Positions 11,206 through 48,014 of a DNA stretch of 64,000 bases are shown in pieces. The stretch is from positions 1 through 64,000 of the forward strand of contig JANYDG010000064.1 of NCBI GenBank assembly GCA_025359885.1. Direction: 5' to 3'. Origin of the DNA: Acidobacteriota bacterium. GTDB taxonomy: Bacteria; Acidobacteriota; Terriglobia; Terriglobales; Acidobacteriaceae. Positions within the stretch are counted from its first letter, which is position 1; the number at the start of each line of letters is the position of its first letter. The translations under genes were made by a program, and so were the position numbers. Under the pieces are notes generated by a model. The model worked only from the letters and a program-made list of their open reading frames with translations, had not been told where the DNA came from and did not search any database.

Positions 11206-11280
11206 GGGCGATTAACTCAGCGGTAGAGTGCCACCTTCACACGGTGGAAGTCGCAGGTTCGAATCCTGCATCGCCCACCA
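11206..11280 (+). tRNA. tRNA-Val (anticodon CAC)
   Basis: A full cloverleaf can be drawn. Acceptor GGGCGAT (11206-11212) pairs with ATCGCCC (11270-11276), then discriminator A and an encoded CCA to 11280. The anticodon arm is CCACC-TTCACAC-GGTGG, placing CAC at the anticodon, which reads GUG valine codons. The T arm is GCAGG-TTCGAAT-CCTGC. The variable loop is short (class I). A T-rich stretch follows at about 11290-11300. It stands alone, with no integrase or phage gene beside it. Confidence 0.97.
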
Positions 11281-34040: not shown

Positions 34041-35120
34041 ATGAGCATCATTCGTTCCCTGACTTTCCCCGTGGCTAGCCTGGCTTTGGCCGCGCTTTTC
34101 ACCTTTGGCATCGCTGCCCAGGCTCAGCAGAGTGAAGAAACAGTTGTTCGCCGCCACATCACGGTGGGCCAGGGCGATATTGCCGCCGCCGGTGGCGTGA
34201 AGAACAACTATTACCATGTGATGGCAGCCAACCTGCCCGGCGCCCGCGAAGCTGCGATGAAGCTGAATGGCGAAAGCGACAAGCGTCTGGCCCGTACGCT
34301 GCCCAACGCTGTAACAGTTCCGCGCACACCCAATGCGCTCACCGCGCCCTATTTCTACCCGGCAGATCTGGCCAAGGGCACCGGCGCAGCGCTGAAGACG
34401 GTCGTCTCCCATGCAGTTTACGTGGACTACACAGGCACGATTGCTGCGAACTGGGGCAATCCCGAAGGCTTCCTCACCGACCTCGGCAAGAGCACTTTTA
34501 TTCACCTGGCTGACCAGTTCGCTGGAACGACGGCCAGCGGCCGTTACACGGTGGGCGCAAATGCTTCTGTCACCTATGGCTTCTACGGAAATACCCTTTA
34601 TGAGCATGAGCTCTGGGCGATTGTCCATGCCGTTGCAAAAACCGACGGCGCTGGCCTGGGCCACATGTATCACATCTTCCTTCCGAATGGCGTCGATACC
34701 TGCTTCGATCAATCGACCTCCTGCTATTCGCCGGACAATACGAACAACTTCTATTTCTGCGCGTACCACAGCTCTGTGACTTTCTCTGACATTGGCACGG
34801 TGATCTTCAGTGTGGAGCCTTACCAGTTGACCCCGGGTTGCCAGGTAGCCACCCCCAGCCCGAACAGCCAGCTTGCAGATTCAACCAACTCCGTGCTCTC
34901 ACATGAGTTCTTTGAGGCGATTACCGACCCGATCGTGGGCTCTGGATGGGTAAACCACACTGGCACGCCTATGGGCGGATCAGAAATCGGCGACGAGTGC
35001 CACACGCTTGGTGACGCAAACGGCAACAATCTCGCGCCAACCTTCCTGATCAACGGCAAAAAGTATGAGGTGCAGACCGAGTACTCCAACACGTATCACG
35101 CCTGCGCAGTGCAACCGTAG
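34041..35120 (+). CDS. Secreted EXORDIUM/phosphate-induced-like hypothetical protein
   Basis: 359 residues. Signal peptide (SLALAALFTFGIAAQAQ). The C-terminal two thirds contain YFYPADLAKGTGAALK, VSHAVYVDYTG, FYFCAYHSSVTF, LSHEFFEAITDP and IGDECHTLGDANGN. HEFFEAITDP is the E-rich signature shared with EXO/PHI-1-type proteins and some metal-dependent secreted proteins. A zinc-peptidase-like site is possible, but the rest of a metallopeptidase active site is not seen. Four to six Cys suggest disulfides. ATG 34041 follows GAGAGG. Known plant EXO proteins affect cell growth; the bacterial function is unknown. A perfect 12-bp terminator follows. Confidence 0.7.
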   Translation: MSIIRSLTFPVASLALAALFTFGIAAQAQQSEETVVRRHITVGQGDIAAAGGVKNNYYHVMAANLPGAREAAMKLNGESDKRLARTLPNAVTVPRTPNALTAPYFYPADLAKGTGAALKTVVSHAVYVDYTGTIAANWGNPEGFLTDLGKSTFIHLADQFAGTTASGRYTVGANASVTYGFYGNTLYEHELWAIVHAVAKTDGAGLGHMYHIFLPNGVDTCFDQSTSCYSPDNTNNFYFCAYHSSVTFSDIGTVIFSVEPYQLTPGCQVATPSPNSQLADSTNSVLSHEFFEAITDPIVGSGWVNHTGTPMGGSEIGDECHTLGDANGNNLAPTFLINGKKYEVQTEYSNTYHACAVQP

Positions 35121-35141: not shown

Positions 35142-35178
35142 AAATGCCCGAGACCTCTCACGAGTTCTCGGGCATTTT
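35142..35178 (+). terminator. Rho-independent terminator, 12-bp perfect stem
   Basis: AAATGCCCGAGA (35142-35153), a 12-base loop, TCTCGGGCATTT (35166-35177), then another T. The A tract at the 5' side makes it potentially bidirectional. It ends the EXO-like gene, 21 bp after the stop. Confidence 0.88.
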
Positions 35179-35200: not shown

Positions 35201-35318
35201 CTAAAGCATTTTCAGGAATGGTATAAACGGAGGCCGCACCGCTGACTGGATTTTTCAACAAGAAAAATCCATCCTCGCGAAAGCTAGACACTTCACAGTA
35301 TTCCTGAAAATGCTCTAG
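35201..35318. repeat. 118-bp inverted-end repeat element, copy 1
   Basis: The left end CTAAAGCATTTTCAGGAAT (35201-35219) is the near-perfect reverse complement of the right end (35300-35318; 18 of 19 match). Inside, TGGATTTTTC-AACAA-GAAAAATCCA makes a second perfect hairpin. A diverged copy occurs at 45869-45985 with the same ends and the same inner motifs (ACTGGATTT, AAGAAAAAT, ACTTCACAG). No coding capacity. It looks like a MITE-, REP- or IRU-type palindromic element, in the gap between the EXO-like terminator and the FAD oxidoreductase 3' end. Confidence 0.8.
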
Positions 35319-35379: not shown

Positions 35380-37323
35380 TTACGGGGGCGTAATGACGGC
35401 GCCATCATTGAGCAACTGTGAACTAAGAGTGCCGTAGCTGACGCCCTGCACCGTAGTGTTGCCGTCAATTGCGAGCGCCGCCGCAGTGCCAGCGGCCTGC
35501 CCCATGATCATGTAGGTAACTTCGACCCGCAGCGAGTCATAGGCCACGTGAGATGCGGAAACATCGACAGGCACCAGCAGGTTGGTTGCTTCTGATTCTC
35601 GTGGAGTCAGAACACGGTATGAAATCGGATACGGTCTGGGCTGATAGCCGCGGTTTGCCTCGTAATGGACGATGCCATTGACACTGAGAATATGGTGCAG
35701 ATGGTCATCGGAAGTGTAACCACCGACGCCAATCGAATCCTGAACCGCCGTTGTCATTTCCAGGTCGTGCTGGGTTGCGACATAGCTGCCCAGCATACGA
35801 CGGGCCTCGCGGACGTAGATCTGGTTGGGCCACCCGCCGTTATCCAGAAATTCGTCCTTGCAAAGCCCCAGTCCTTGTGCTGTTTTCAGTACGTCGGGCG
35901 GAATGCGCTTGTCGGTCAGAATGAAGTGAATGAAACCTTCCATGTAGCGTCTTTGTTCTGCGGCAATCTTGCGGCGCTCTTCTGCGGAGCCGTCGGGATA
36001 TCGATAGTTCTCGCCTACCTCATCGGTTGAAAAGAAGCTCCGAGTATTGTTCCAATCGAACTTGAGACCGGGGAGAGCATGTATATCCAAGTAGTAACCA
36101 ACGCGGAGTGGAGGATTCATGTCGGTGGCCATGCGACCGAGCAACTCATATTCTGCAGGGTTGTAGTTCACCGGTTGGGGGAATGGAATCTGGTTGGATG
36201 GGTCTGAACTGAGGCACATGCGATAGTTGTAGCCCATCACGGTGGTATCAGCAGATCCCTGAGCGGGCAGTGTCGTCGGCTTAACATGAGCAATAAGACC
36301 ACTGCTTGAGTCACCACGCACGACGTAGGCATCAATCGATTGATTGCCCATTTTGTTTGGCGAGTTCACACCCGCCAGGGCTTCGTTATAGGTGGCCACA
36401 GACTCGCGGCCCACCGTATACGTGACCCCGGCAGCGGCCATCAGATCACCGGTATAGCTGGCGTCTATGAATTGCTTCGCTGTATAGGTGGTGCCGTTGC
36501 TGGCCACAATGCCTGTGATGGCAGTGCCATTCATTTGGACAGACTGGAACGAGGTGCCCATCGCTACAGCAATGCCCGAGTGCCTTGCGAGCATGGTATC
36601 GAATGAGTTTTCGGCAACATGAGGCTCAAAGACCTGGCCCCGCAGGTTGATCTTGCTGCCACGATAGTGGTCGTTGACAATCGAGTAGAACGTTTTGGGT
36701 AGTCCACCGATGATTGCATCGCCATACTCGTCGCTGTACCCCAATCCATTGGTCATGATGCCGCCAACGTGATTTTCGGGGTCGAGGAGCGTGACTTTCT
36801 TTCCATGCACGGCGGCAGCGACGGCGGCCATGATACCTGCCGGCGTTGCACCATAGACAAGCACATCCGCACTGGTTTGCGTACTTCCCAATCCTATCAA
36901 CGGAATCATGACACCTGCGGTCGAGCCATCACCCACGATCTTGATCGAAGCCTTGGCCATCGGAACAGCCTCGGTCGGGGCAAAGGAAACCTGAATGCTG
37001 CAACTGGCTGAGACCGGCAGGCTCGGGCCGCAATCGTTGAATTGGTGAAAGCTGCCAAGCTGGCTCCCTGTCAGCGAGATTGCGCTGATCGTGAGCGGCG
37101 CAAAGCCAGAATTTGAGATAGTCACGGTTCGAGCCACACTCTGGCTTCCGACCAGGGTCGGCGTGAAGTGCACGGCGTTGGGAGTGATCGTTGCTCCGCG
37201 AATGAAGCTCCCTGTAATGGACTGGCAACTGCACAGCACCAGAAGGCTTGAGAAAACGGCGAGAAACATCCATCGCACCCCCTTGGGACGCACTTGCCTC
37301 ATCGTCTTTTGCTCGGAATTCAT
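35380..37323 (-). CDS. Exported FAD-dependent oxidoreductase with N-terminal ASH-type domain
   Basis: 647 residues. A hydrophobic N-terminus ends in LLVLCSC, a possible lipobox/lipoprotein signal. Residues about 45-150 form a choice-of-anchor-D/ASPM-SPD-2-Hydin-like beta-sandwich (VTISNSGFAPLTISAISLTG, CSIQVSFAPTE). The C-terminal 490 residues are an FAD_oxidored domain: DVLVYGATPAGIMAAVAAAVHGKKVTLLDPENHVGG near 155, IDASYTGDLMAAAGVTY near 290. These enzymes are often exported and of unknown substrate, with FAD bound in the Rossmann-like part. ATG 37323 is the first start; ATG 37302 is equally possible. Substrate not predictable. Confidence 0.85.
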   Translation of the reverse strand: MNSEQKTMRQVRPKGVRWMFLAVFSSLLVLCSCQSITGSFIRGATITPNAVHFTPTLVGSQSVARTVTISNSGFAPLTISAISLTGSQLGSFHQFNDCGPSLPVSASCSIQVSFAPTEAVPMAKASIKIVGDGSTAGVMIPLIGLGSTQTSADVLVYGATPAGIMAAVAAAVHGKKVTLLDPENHVGGIMTNGLGYSDEYGDAIIGGLPKTFYSIVNDHYRGSKINLRGQVFEPHVAENSFDTMLARHSGIAVAMGTSFQSVQMNGTAITGIVASNGTTYTAKQFIDASYTGDLMAAAGVTYTVGRESVATYNEALAGVNSPNKMGNQSIDAYVVRGDSSSGLIAHVKPTTLPAQGSADTTVMGYNYRMCLSSDPSNQIPFPQPVNYNPAEYELLGRMATDMNPPLRVGYYLDIHALPGLKFDWNNTRSFFSTDEVGENYRYPDGSAEERRKIAAEQRRYMEGFIHFILTDKRIPPDVLKTAQGLGLCKDEFLDNGGWPNQIYVREARRMLGSYVATQHDLEMTTAVQDSIGVGGYTSDDHLHHILSVNGIVHYEANRGYQPRPYPISYRVLTPRESEATNLLVPVDVSASHVAYDSLRVEVTYMIMGQAAGTAAALAIDGNTTVQGVSYGTLSSQLLNDGAVITPP

Positions 37324-45179: not shown

Positions 45180-45755
45180 TTACATTTCAAGGAAGTTGCG
45201 AATCATCTGGCGGCCACCCTCGGTGAGCACGCTTTCCGGGTGAAACTGAACACCCTCGACAGCCAGTGACCGATGGCGCAGGCCCATGATGATGCTTTCG
45301 CCATGCTTGCCAACTGACCTTGCGGTGACTTCCAGCTCGGCGGGCAAACCCTCTTCGGCGACGATAAGCGAGTGGTAGCGGGTGCAGGTAAGCGGAGTCG
45401 GGAGTCCGGCAAAGATCCCTTTGGCGTCGTGTTCTACGGGGCTGGTTTTGCCGTGCATCAGCTCAGCTGCGCGTACCACCTGGCCACCGAACGCCGCTCC
45501 TATGGCCTGATGGCCGAGGCACACGCCCAGAATCGGCGCTTTGCCCGCCATGCGCTGAATCAGCGGCACCAGGATACCGGCATCCTGCGGAGTGCACGGC
45601 CCTGGCGAGAGCAGGATGCGCTCTGGCTTGAGCGCCTCAACCTCATCAACCGACAGCTCGTCGTTACGGCGAATCACCATCGCGGCGCCGAGTTCGCCGA
45701 GGTATTGGACGAGGTTGTAGGTAAAGGAATCGTAGTTGTCGAGAACGAAGACCAT
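45180..45755 (-). CDS. trpG: Anthranilate/aminodeoxychorismate synthase glutaminase subunit
   Basis: 191 residues, class I glutamine amidotransferase. [22 protein letters not shown] at the N-terminus, [15 protein letters not shown], catalytic Cys in [13 protein letters not shown], and His-Glu in [16 protein letters not shown]. It supplies ammonia from glutamine to TrpE or PabB; many bacteria use one such subunit for both, so it may serve folate as well. ATG 45755 replaces a longer open frame to 45854. On the opposite strand from trpE, with two unrelated genes between. Confidence 0.93.
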
Positions 45756-45868: not shown

Positions 45869-45985
45869 CTTGAGCATTTTCAGGAATGGTAGACCGAAGA
45901 AGCTTTGCTCACTGGATTTATCCTCAAGAAAAATACAACCTCACCCAAGCGAGAGACTTCACAGAATTCCTGAAAATGCCTTAAG
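45869..45985. repeat. 118-bp-class inverted-end repeat element, copy 2
   Basis: The left end CTTGAGCATTTTCAGGAAT (45869-45887) pairs with the right end (45966-45985), whose reverse complement is CTTAAGGCATTTTCAGGAAT, one base longer. Internal blocks shared with copy 1 at 35201: GGTA after the left end, ACTGGATTT, AAGAAAAAT, CCTC, ACTTCACAG. The right end includes the stop codon (45981-45983) of the LVIVD-repeat gene. No coding capacity. Confidence 0.8.
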
Positions 45986-48014
45986 CCACTGGATGCTCGA
46001 GGATTTCGGCCAAAGCGTGCAGCCGTTTGGCGTCCACCGGATTGCTGGTTGCGGTTGCGTCGGTTTCAACGGTCGCGGCCATCGCCTTGAGTTTTACCAG
46101 GTCTTTCGCACCGAGGTGCGACTTCTGCGTTTGAACAATCGCCTTTCTCAGCCCGGCAATGCGCTCAGGGGGCAGGGCCTGCGAACGCTCCAGCTGATCG
46201 AGATAAGCCTGCGAAACGGCCAGCTTTGCGGGCCACTTGATCTGCTGCTGATTCTGCACGTTGAGTTCGCTCACCTGCACCAGGCTGGCCGCGTCGATCT
46301 CGTTCTGGGTGAGAAACTTGCCCGGCACCAGTTTGAAAACATCCAAACCGCGCGCAATCTCTGAGCCGTAGATGTAGCCGTTGTACCAATAGGTAGACCA
46401 CTGCCCGCCGAGGACGAGCGACTTGGGATCGATGGGTCCGCGATCAAAGTAGGCAATCTCAAAGGGATGCGCTGCGTCGGTAAAGTCCATGACGGATACG
46501 CCGCCCTGGTACCACGACTGCACTTCGATATCGCGTCCCGGAACCGGTACGAGCGAGCCATTGTGGGCCACGCAGTTTTCCGCATCGGTCTGGGCTGCGG
46601 GCATTTTGTAGTAGCCCGCGAGCGAGAGCTTGTCGTCTTTCAGATTGAAGATGGCATCGGCTCCCCAGATATTGGGGTCGGTCGCACGGCAGCGCGCGCC
46701 GAGGCCGCCACCCCACTCATCGGTAAAGACCACCTTGGTGCCATCGTTCGAGAAAGATGCAGAGTGCCAATAGGCGTAATTCGGGTCGTTGACCGCATCG
46801 ACTCGCTTGGGGTGAACGGGGTCCCGGATGTCCAGCAGGAGGCCATTGCCAGAGCAGGCACCCGCCGCAAGGCCGATGGCCGAATACACCGTGATGTCAT
46901 GGCACTGGTTGGTGTCGGCGGGCTTTTCAGCGCCCTTGTCATGGCTGCCGCCGTTGTTGAGGCCGTTGAGAGCGCCGGTGCGCGGGTCAATGAAGACGCG
47001 CGGGCTGGAGACAATCTTCGCCTGCTGCGGCGCCGCGACGGGGACCTTGATCACGTCGATGCGAAAGAGCGAGGTGTTCGGGTCCTTGTCGGGAGCTTCA
47101 CCTGAGCAGCCCGCGAGCTCTTCGCCCTGGCGGACAAACGACGTTCCCGAAACGTAGATGTAAACATTCTCCTTGTCGTTGGGGTCAACGACGAGGGTGT
47201 GGGTGTGCGAGCCGCGGCAGGTCTGGATGGCTGCAACCTGTTTGGGATTCTTGATGTTGGAGATGTCAAAAATGCGCACGCCGCGAAAGCGGTCAGGGCT
47301 GGCGACCGGCAGTCGGCGCTCCTTTTCGTGACCTTTTTCGGGCGGAGGCAGAGGCGGAAAGGCCTGCGTGCCGCAATCGAGCCGCCCGTTGGGCATTTCG
47401 ACCGACATGAAGAGCAGCTTGCCGTAGACGGAAACATCGCCCTGACCGCCGGGGCATACCAACGACGTAATCAGCGAAACCTTGGCGGGGTTTGAGATGT
47501 CGTAAAAATTTACGCCATAGAAGTTGCCCTGAAACAGATGGGTTCCCTGGAAGGCAAAATCGGAGTTTGCGAAGGCAAGCTGCGCAATCACCATCTGCGT
47601 CGACTTTGACATTTTTGATCGGTCGCCAACGCCCAGCTGGCCAAGCGTCTTTTGCACGATCGGGTCATCGGCGTTGGTTGCCGTGAACTGGAAGGCAGCC
47701 GGCTTCTTGAGGAATGCAACGTGTTTCATGCCCATGGCGGCTTCGCCGGCGTCATAGAGGCCTGGCTTGAGGCTAGACCGCGGGTCGTTGCTGTTGGAAC
47801 CGGTCATGCCGAGGGGCAGCGCAGGAGCGGGCTGCGGCTTGAAGGGATCTGCCTCCTCTTCAGCAGCCGGCTTCGCAGCTGGGTCGGGGGTAGTCTGGGC
47901 GGGCGTGGCAGCAGGAGCGGCCTGCGACCAAAGCATGTTTTGAGCAGAACCGGCGAGTGCCGCGAAAAAGGCCATGCTGGCCAGACGAAAAACAAGAGCC
48001 TGCTTACGAGTCAT
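45981..48014 (-). CDS. Secreted LVIVD-repeat beta-propeller-like protein
   Basis: 677 residues. A signal peptide (LASMAFFAALAGSAQN) and a Pro/Ala-rich stretch to about 65, then LVIVD-type repeats: GVNFYDISNPAKVSLITSLVC, RGVRIFDISNIKNPKQVAAI, GNGLLLDIRDPVHPKRVDAV, YQGGVSVMDFTDAAHPFEIA, YGSEIARGLDVFKLV. These give a propeller-like fold with no known enzyme activity. Several Cys. The last 80 residues are helical. ATG 48014 overlaps the end of the DUF305 gene by 4 bp (ATGA), implying translational coupling. The stop lies within the repeat element. Confidence 0.82.
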   Translation of the reverse strand: MTRKQALVFRLASMAFFAALAGSAQNMLWSQAAPAATPAQTTPDPAAKPAAEEEADPFKPQPAPALPLGMTGSNSNDPRSSLKPGLYDAGEAAMGMKHVAFLKKPAAFQFTATNADDPIVQKTLGQLGVGDRSKMSKSTQMVIAQLAFANSDFAFQGTHLFQGNFYGVNFYDISNPAKVSLITSLVCPGGQGDVSVYGKLLFMSVEMPNGRLDCGTQAFPPLPPPEKGHEKERRLPVASPDRFRGVRIFDISNIKNPKQVAAIQTCRGSHTHTLVVDPNDKENVYIYVSGTSFVRQGEELAGCSGEAPDKDPNTSLFRIDVIKVPVAAPQQAKIVSSPRVFIDPRTGALNGLNNGGSHDKGAEKPADTNQCHDITVYSAIGLAAGACSGNGLLLDIRDPVHPKRVDAVNDPNYAYWHSASFSNDGTKVVFTDEWGGGLGARCRATDPNIWGADAIFNLKDDKLSLAGYYKMPAAQTDAENCVAHNGSLVPVPGRDIEVQSWYQGGVSVMDFTDAAHPFEIAYFDRGPIDPKSLVLGGQWSTYWYNGYIYGSEIARGLDVFKLVPGKFLTQNEIDAASLVQVSELNVQNQQQIKWPAKLAVSQAYLDQLERSQALPPERIAGLRKAIVQTQKSHLGAKDLVKLKAMAATVETDATATSNPVDAKRLHALAEILEHPVA

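Follow-up and report, generated by a model that had tools for sequence, protein, structure and literature searches.

Bacterial MITEs with TA ends are well known, and Correia, ERIC and RUP are among them (PMC2229807). ERIC, also named IRU or RU-1, is described as a 127-bp palindrome with TA ends that lies between genes in 30 to 711 copies per genome (PMC2229807, PMC10969869), and in the account of a 2007 review no insertion sequence with ERIC-matching ends had been reported (PMC2229807). For the insertion sequences IS630 and ISY100, duplication of a TA is described (PMC2170065). Here we describe a large family of ~118-bp mobile DNA hairpins in acidobacteria, inserting at gene ends, and compare it with these systems.

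RESULTS

Two copies in the window

A first-pass annotation of the window (the whole 64,000-nucleotide stretch of DNA that was analysed) had described a palindrome-ended element in two copies, just past the 3′ ends of genes. Both coordinates were right: copy 1 (type A) occupies 118 bp at 35201-35318 and copy 2 (type B) 117 bp at 45869-45985. The position was right as well: copy 1 is flanked by two convergent genes, at distances of 80 bp and 61 bp, and a stop codon falls within copy 2. The parts of the two copies and the neighbouring genes are as follows; R1 is the covariance model described below.

35201..35318, minus strand (the strand of R1 and the best RNA-folding strand): copy 1, an element of subfamily A with an aligned length of 118 bp (BLAST, covariance model, folds)
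35202..35203, no strand: left flanking TA of copy 1, half of a presumed TA target duplication (by analogy with the empty sites of other copies)
35316..35317, no strand: right flanking TA of copy 1 (sequence)
35201..35219, plus strand: left terminal inverted repeat of copy 1 (sequence)
35300..35318, minus strand: right terminal inverted repeat of copy 1 (sequence)
35247..35271, plus strand: central hairpin of copy 1, TGGATTTTTC-loop-GAAAAATCCA (sequence, folds, conserved in relatives)
45869..45985, minus strand: copy 2, an element of subfamily B, 117 bp long (its orthologous site is empty in the relative G011)
45981..45983, minus strand: TAA stop codon of the gene at 45981-48014, made of the flanking TA and the terminal base of copy 2 (sequence)
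34041..35120, plus strand: gene without a Pfam match, 3′ end 80 bp before copy 1 (gene finder, Pfam)
35380..37269, minus strand: convergent gene for an FAD-dependent oxidoreductase (PF12831) whose 3′ end is 61 bp beyond copy 1 (gene finder, Pfam)
45180..45755, minus strand: class-I glutamine amidotransferase gene (PF00117), 5′ end 113 bp from copy 2 (gene finder, Pfam)
45981..48014, minus strand: gene without a Pfam match, stop codon within the end of copy 2 (gene finder, Pfam)

The terminal repeats of 19-20 bp had been called near identical, which holds for copy 1, where 18 of 20 positions match ungapped, but not for copy 2, where only 10 of 20 do; the ends of copy 2 are shifted by one base and the GCATTTTCAGGAAT core is nonetheless intact at both. 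Likewise, the inner hairpin ascribed to copy 1 is present there, but it is a family-wide feature that has decayed in copy 2. The z-scores of the predicted RNA folds were −5.9 (plus strand) and −7.4 (minus strand) for copy 1 and −3.4 and −3.1, respectively, for copy 2. When the window was scanned with Rfam, no family matched the repeat at threshold (a mir-284 match with an E value of 0.043 fell far under its cut-off), and a tRNA gene at 11206-11277 was the sole match in the window at the gathering threshold. A scan for intrinsic terminators (a hairpin followed by a T run) gave none at copy 1 and one weak internal match in copy 2, compared to 0.5 in shuffles. A separate hairpin with a T-rich tail, AAATGCCCGAGA...TCTCGGGCATTT, lies at 35142-35177, 3′ of the gene at 34041-35120 and upstream of copy 1; it is conserved in G011, is probably that gene's own terminator, and was missed by the scan because its loop is longer than the scan permits.

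The element is a palindrome of fixed length

The element is an imperfect palindrome along its whole length. Inward from each end it consists of Y-TA, RAGCATTTTC with a variable stretch, a spacer starting near TGTRRAC, the core, and GTGGATTTTTC, which pairs with its partner copy across a loop of ~5 bases to form a central hairpin. Each half is homologous to the other: many copies are also matched by R1 on the reverse strand, and a sequence-only model of one 59-bp half (R2) gave at least 127 matches in the genome that contains the window (G000; best 150 of 1699 candidates), and by inspection these lie, among the matches listed, within paired elements, degenerate or cut ones excepted.

Among 164 elements from 33 genomes (one cut copy was dropped), 104 were 118 bp long, 50 were 117 or 119 bp, and the rest 114, 116, 120 or 121 bp, a length that is partly by construction as the ends of 44 of the 164 were extrapolated from the two window copies. 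The fixed length is independent of the extrapolated ends, because pairs of facing ends found by pattern alone show the same span. Measured from TA to TA, this span was 114-117 bp in 42 of 42 pairs in G000 (first 100 of 113 matches) and 113-122 bp in 33 of 33 pairs in G022 (first 100 of 115 matches). End-pair spacing was unlimited in the pattern search, and pairs more than 400 bp apart were set aside as joining separate elements; the four facing pairs at 2.8-4.7 kb each joined two different elements, except for one in which a lone G022 end (C25:75088) faced an element. With a length within 70-300 bp, terminal inverted repeats and no coding capacity, the element has the properties of a MITE. A second subtype in G022 (L285, L286, L288, L291, L293) has the same outer ends and a similar length, with a GC-rich centre, GCCGCCGC...GCGGCGGC or close to it, replacing GTGGATTTTTC.

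The family is large and reaches three acidobacterial families

We searched G000, a 4.2-Mb draft of 125 contigs, with the core, with copy 1 and with R1, and its relatives with R1. Many further copies were found, so the element is not confined to the window, and the 'two copies' became dozens. In G000, the core AGCATTTTCAGGAAT occurred 50 times compared to 0 for its reversed control, and BLAST with copy 1 found at least 40 places (itself included) with 84-100% identity over most of the element (40 of 76 candidates scored). The covariance model R1, built from 40 copies, also picked up diverged copies (best 150 of 1822 candidates). We catalogued 73 copies in G000 (weakest E value near 0.007 per genome), four of them cut or decayed, and left out at least two weak or partial places (C20:9065-9171 and C98:7877). 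Type A accounts for 37 intact copies, and the 36 besides copy 1 show ~85-97% BLAST identity to it; copies 1 and 2 thus represent different subfamilies.

R1 matched at E ≤ 0.001 in 15 of 41 genomes, 13 of them of the same genus (G000 included), one of another genus of the same family and one of another family; the genomes with the most matches were G000, G022, G008 and G012. At E ≤ 1e-6, the family yielded matches in 28 or more of 200 genomes (at least 12 of 79 genera) and the class in at least 12 of 299, including two of a third family (18 or 12 candidates per genome were scored in these searches). One pattern match in Bacteroidota (1 of 31) was discarded as chance-like, its middle being unlike the family.

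Two observations on individual copies were made along with the catalogue. At C98:7877-7911 in G000, a fragment close to type B stands directly beside a complete type A element, and may reflect one site used repeatedly or a partial deletion. Elements shared by G008 and G012 (L229/L233/L234 and others) have flanks that are 99-100% identical although the two are listed as separate species, which may be due to a recent common origin or to shared binning.

Empty sites and the target

The copies are mobile, and sites that are empty in a relative show recent spread. The relative G011 belongs to the same genus and is up to 87% identical across the window region (other pieces 69-86%). The site of copy 2 is empty there: the window gene ends ...GCT TAA where the G011 gene runs uninterrupted to ...GCT TAG, and the junction is CTAA. 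We queried G011 with 15 gene-end segments from 13 other loci, which had been selected for an element within the stop codon and are not a sample of all contexts; 13 segments from 11 loci matched. The element was absent from G011 at all 11 alignable loci, and the junction was a TA in YTAR at 10 of these (CTAA 3, CTAG 3, TTAG 2 and TTAA 2; alignments by eye). The exception was L053, where G011 has a TGA stop codon and no TA at the corresponding place. G011 is also without the element at the locus of copy 1, where a base-by-base alignment of the empty site was not achieved. Copy number, relatives and empty sites thus support the earlier proposal of a mobile, amplified, MITE-like element.

The TA was intact on both sides in 34 of the 73 G000 copies (CTAG 17, TTAG 8, CTAA 5, TTAA 1, other 3), so that 31 of 34 lie in YTAR and 17 of 34 in CTAG. 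This is a preference like that of IS630, which reportedly favours TA in CTAG, as the title of one paper has it. The copies behave as expected for a TA target with a 2-bp duplication, with a constant TA carried by the element as the possible alternative; since TA is part of almost all targets, the two are not strictly separable. In 40 copies, longer duplications did not exceed shuffles. Moreover, the position just outside the left TA is variable (C 28, T 18, A 1), whereas in type A copies the one inside the right end hardly varies, indicating that any duplication consists of TA only.

Copies lie at gene 3′ ends and rebuild stop codons

Genes were predicted with a simple finder based on codon usage. 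Of 146 copies from 14 genomes, none lay inside a predicted gene and 69 overlapped a gene 3′ end, in 59 cases by exactly four bases. Of 142 gene sides next to an element in G000, 109 are 3′ ends, and convergent gaps made up 41 of 69 two-sided gaps with copies compared to 20 of 118 without (P = 5e-9). The exact four-base overlap was present in 32 of the 73 G000 copies, where the stop codon consists of TA and the element's terminal base (31 TAA or TAG, 1 TGA). Elsewhere the overlap was found in 14 of 22 copies in G008, in 1 of 24 examined in G022 (this one a TGA) and in 12 of 27 in other genomes. At L040 and L058, the empty site carries overlapping stop codons of convergent genes (CTAG and TTAA, respectively), and the element rebuilt both.

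How much of this overlap is to be expected from the target alone can be judged from element-free gaps. There, 59 of 806 intergenic TA lie in stop codons (P = 3e-15 against 32 of 73 copies), as do 31 of 147 YTAR sites (P = 0.0008). For CTAG sites the figure is 11 of 34, not significantly different from the copies (P = 0.30). Because the CTAG comparison shows no significant difference, target preference explains most of the stop-codon overlap. Thus, the CTAG/YTAR preference together with the loss of intragenic insertions accounts for most of the stop-codon bias, and we rejected a dedicated stop-codon insertion mechanism as its main cause, as 11 of 34 non-coding CTAG sites already lie in stop codons.

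Search for the mobilising enzyme

The TA target and the CTAG preference point to a transposase of the IS630/Tc1-mariner type. The corresponding domain, DDE_3 (PF13358), had no match in G000, and none of 30 DDE_3 loci of relatives carried the element's ends. As no PF13358 transposase with matching ends was detected in G000 or at these 30 loci, we do not file the family as a proven IS630 derivative. Lone ends led no further: all 50 exact cores in G000 lie inside elements (comparison by eye), one lone end with two mismatches (C85:7675; first 100 of 113 near matches) lies at the 3′ end of an ordinary open reading frame with no recognised transposase beside it, and 16 regions at mostly unpaired G022 ends held complete, degenerate or truncated elements and no recognisable transposon. 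Thus the PF13358 loci and end matches examined in these draft genomes yielded no insertion sequence with matching ends. Draft assemblies lose repeated insertion sequences. An autonomous element enclosed by two close copies was rejected for the two pairs whose open reading frames were listed, 2.9 kb apart in G008 and 3.5 kb apart in G000, since both enclose ordinary genes; the 2.9-kb pair is common to G008, G012 and G014.

TA and CTAG targets are also known for IS5-type groups, and mobilisation by another DDE family with such a target (e.g. the IS427 group of IS5) would fit the lack of an IS630 transposase match in G000. The duplication, however, does not reach beyond TA, given the varying base outside the left TA and the nearly constant one inside the right end, and we regard this origin as rather improbable.

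Outer ends change between types while the length stays fixed

Across genomes, the outer ends fall into 24 types, where differences at three or more of 12 positions set one type apart. In ten types at least 15 of 20 positions pair, and the remainder include nine G000 copies in various stages of decay. Over positions 7-20, agreement between the left and right end of the same element is 78%, compared to 47% between different types. These percentages are biased upward, since the model used for retrieval favours paired sequences; the variety of sequence is unaffected. The central stems alter in step between types (TGGATTTTTC, GCGGCTTTTC, ACGGTTTTTC, GCAGCTTTTC, GGGGCTTTTC and AGGCATTTTC), with at least seven perfect pairs in 19 of 24 type representatives and a loop mostly near TTGAT/TTGAG. 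Thus, outer ends and central hairpin shift together among end types while the length stays fixed.

Within G000, no covariation exceeded shuffles, as expected for young copies, and variation is unevenly spread along the element. The spacers are ~3-4 times more variable than the rest in type A copies; they make up 24% of columns but hold 68% (G000), 75% (G008) and 39% (G022) of shared variant cells, while variants seen once are evenly spread (P = 0.80). Linked pairs of shared variants numbered 1 compared to 0.3 in shuffles in G000 and 0 compared to 0.1 in G022, i.e. no linkage, and 5 compared to 0.1 in G008. As shared variants are unlinked in G000 and G022, recurrent change can mimic inheritance, and the uneven variation may, but need not, reflect a constraint on the mobile lineage only. 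The insertions shared by G008, G012 and G014 (10 overlapping pairs) contain 22 differences, which are non-independent and too few to decide. The cores and the central hairpin were constrained, by transposition or by host use.

Host use would take the form of a structured RNA, in which the element, transcribed at the 3′ end of a gene, would fold as a long hairpin that protects or destabilises the mRNA, as has reportedly been shown for the transcribed ERIC hairpin in Yersinia. The strong predicted folds are consistent with it, the R1 strand folding better in 36 of 40 copies, as are the loop near TTGA(T/G) in many types and the location at gene 3′ ends; single changes to G-U in G000 outnumber those to A-C by 60 to 36, a weak excess among cells that are not independent. 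Yet the orientation of the element showed no significant bias relative to the upstream gene (33 opposite and 21 same in 54 tandem contexts, P = 0.13), and the lack of covariation above shuffles within G000, the recent spread seen at the empty sites and the lack of an Rfam family at threshold also argue against a structure kept for the host, which we consider unlikely as the main explanation. Host function and mobility are not mutually exclusive, and an ERIC-like effect on mRNA 3′ stability is possible by analogy.

DISCUSSION

Taken together, the results make it quite probable that the repeats are a non-autonomous MITE family that inserts at TA within YTAR and is mobilised in trans, most likely by a transposase of the IS630/Tc1-mariner type. 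The unit would be a palindrome of ~112 bp inserted at TA, mostly within YTAR or CTAG, with TA on both flanks, and would consist of two inverted ends of ~59 bp placed back to back, each made up of an inverted repeat on the outside, a variable spacer and, innermost, a repeat whose pairing with its partner gives the central hairpin. A transposase supplied in trans would recognise both ends and insert the unit into TA. Insertions within genes would be purged by selection, leaving the survivors at gene 3′ ends. The TA of a stop codon would be a safe site, because the element starts with A or G and so restores TAA or TAG; where convergent stop codons overlap (TTAA or CTAG), both are rebuilt. Repetition, palindromy, fixed length, empty sites, the YTAR target, the restored stop codons and the lack of copies in predicted genes are observations, whereas the type of transposase, mobilisation in trans and purifying selection behind the positional bias are inferred from them.

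Several findings count against this explanation. The PF13358 and end searches gave no transposase with matching ends, a TA is missing from G011 at L053 (1 of 11 loci), and only 1 of 24 G022 copies shows the four-base stop overlap. In addition, conservation extends past the terminal repeats to the cores and the central hairpin, which a plain MITE would not need. We also put forward, tentatively and as the less probable case, that the family may be one ancient, self-contained 118-bp lineage across at least three families of a class rather than the recent leftovers of separate insertion sequences. Its length, central hairpin and subterminal motifs would have been kept while the outer recognition sequence was repeatedly replaced on both ends together; some enzyme would then act on the folded unit as a whole rather than on its terminal repeats alone, and YTAR stop codons would serve as landing places that are both reserved and harmless.

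The alternative that survives least well is that of REP/BIME-type repeats (REPINs) moved by RAYT, an HUH tyrosine transposase, as in other acidobacteria: acidobacterial RAYTs and GTAG REPs, which often give neighbours a TAG stop, are described (PMC3733652) and the element is palindromic, extragenic and without a long target duplication, but there is no GTAG tag (C 28, T 18, A 1 in front of the left TA), the halves fold no better than shuffles (mean z −0.38 and 0.09, compared to −5.46 for the whole; 42 sampled elements) and the length is 118 bp instead of 20-40 bp, which makes this origin very unlikely. Thus, of the names offered by the first-pass annotation, MITE and IRU (ERIC-like) fit, whereas a GTAG-tagged REP fits poorly in view of the YTAR ends, the 118 bp and the unfolded halves.

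Acidobacteria are abundant in soil and their small repeats have been little described. The family provides many natural insertions with known empty sites, with which the effect of a 3′ hairpin on expression can be tested directly, as can the logic of harmless insertion into stop codons. Moreover, the fixed length combined with changing ends turns the search for the missing enzyme into a concrete question. Our literature search returned no paper on such a repeat family in acidobacteria, and the one hit that paired acidobacteria with MITEs merely cites a plant paper; a word search of the main text of a 2024 review of prokaryotic MITEs (PMC10969869) gave neither acidobacteria nor stop codons.

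Comparison with known systems

Alphaproteobacteria have ~51-bp palindromes, CTAGAGCAT...ATGCTCTAG (e.g. L283:701-751), which may be linked to RIME. They share the terminal letters CTAGAGCA with the acidobacterial element, but are about half as long and have no GTGGATTTTTC central hairpin. Searching with this palindrome gave matches at E ≤ 1 in 491 plasmid records, of which 65 had at least 80% of the query covered; most came from Rhizobium and Sinorhizobium. In one of three annotated regions viewed (Bradyrhizobium), the palindrome shows the same four-base overlap, here with the stop codon of a LysR gene. A shared target logic or a distant kinship with the acidobacterial element is possible.

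Like ERIC as described, the acidobacterial element is palindromic, of similar length, intergenic and has TA ends; the PF13358 and end searches gave no insertion sequence with matching ends for it. The two, compared by description only, differ in host phylum and in the outer repeat, which is ~19 bp here and is listed as 7 bp for ERIC; the acidobacterial outer ends also turn over between species at fixed length, and insertion into stop codons is frequent. RUP of pneumococcus (107 bp) is, by its description, likewise a MITE of similar size with a TA target and is over-represented between convergent genes; its proposed mobilisation is by IS630-Spn1, a candidate helper with similar ends, whereas the PF13358 and end searches gave none for the acidobacterial element. 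BOX of pneumococcus is reported to encode the stop codon of 36 CDSs, and SPRITE, also of pneumococcus, to be enriched near the 3′ ends of convergent genes (PMC3049150); as described, however, BOX is modular and of variable length and SPRITE is terminator-like with a U-rich tract. The ends of GTAG-tagged REPs, whose RAYTs are known in acidobacteria, are likewise said to often supply a TAG stop (PMC3733652), but the acidobacterial tag is YTAR, and size and fold differ. Since TA-ended MITEs are known, as are repeats that supply stop codons or lie at convergent gene ends, we file the element as a new repeat family of an already known sort, the bacterial MITE. What is less usual is that one length and one architecture have long persisted across three families while the outer ends were replaced.
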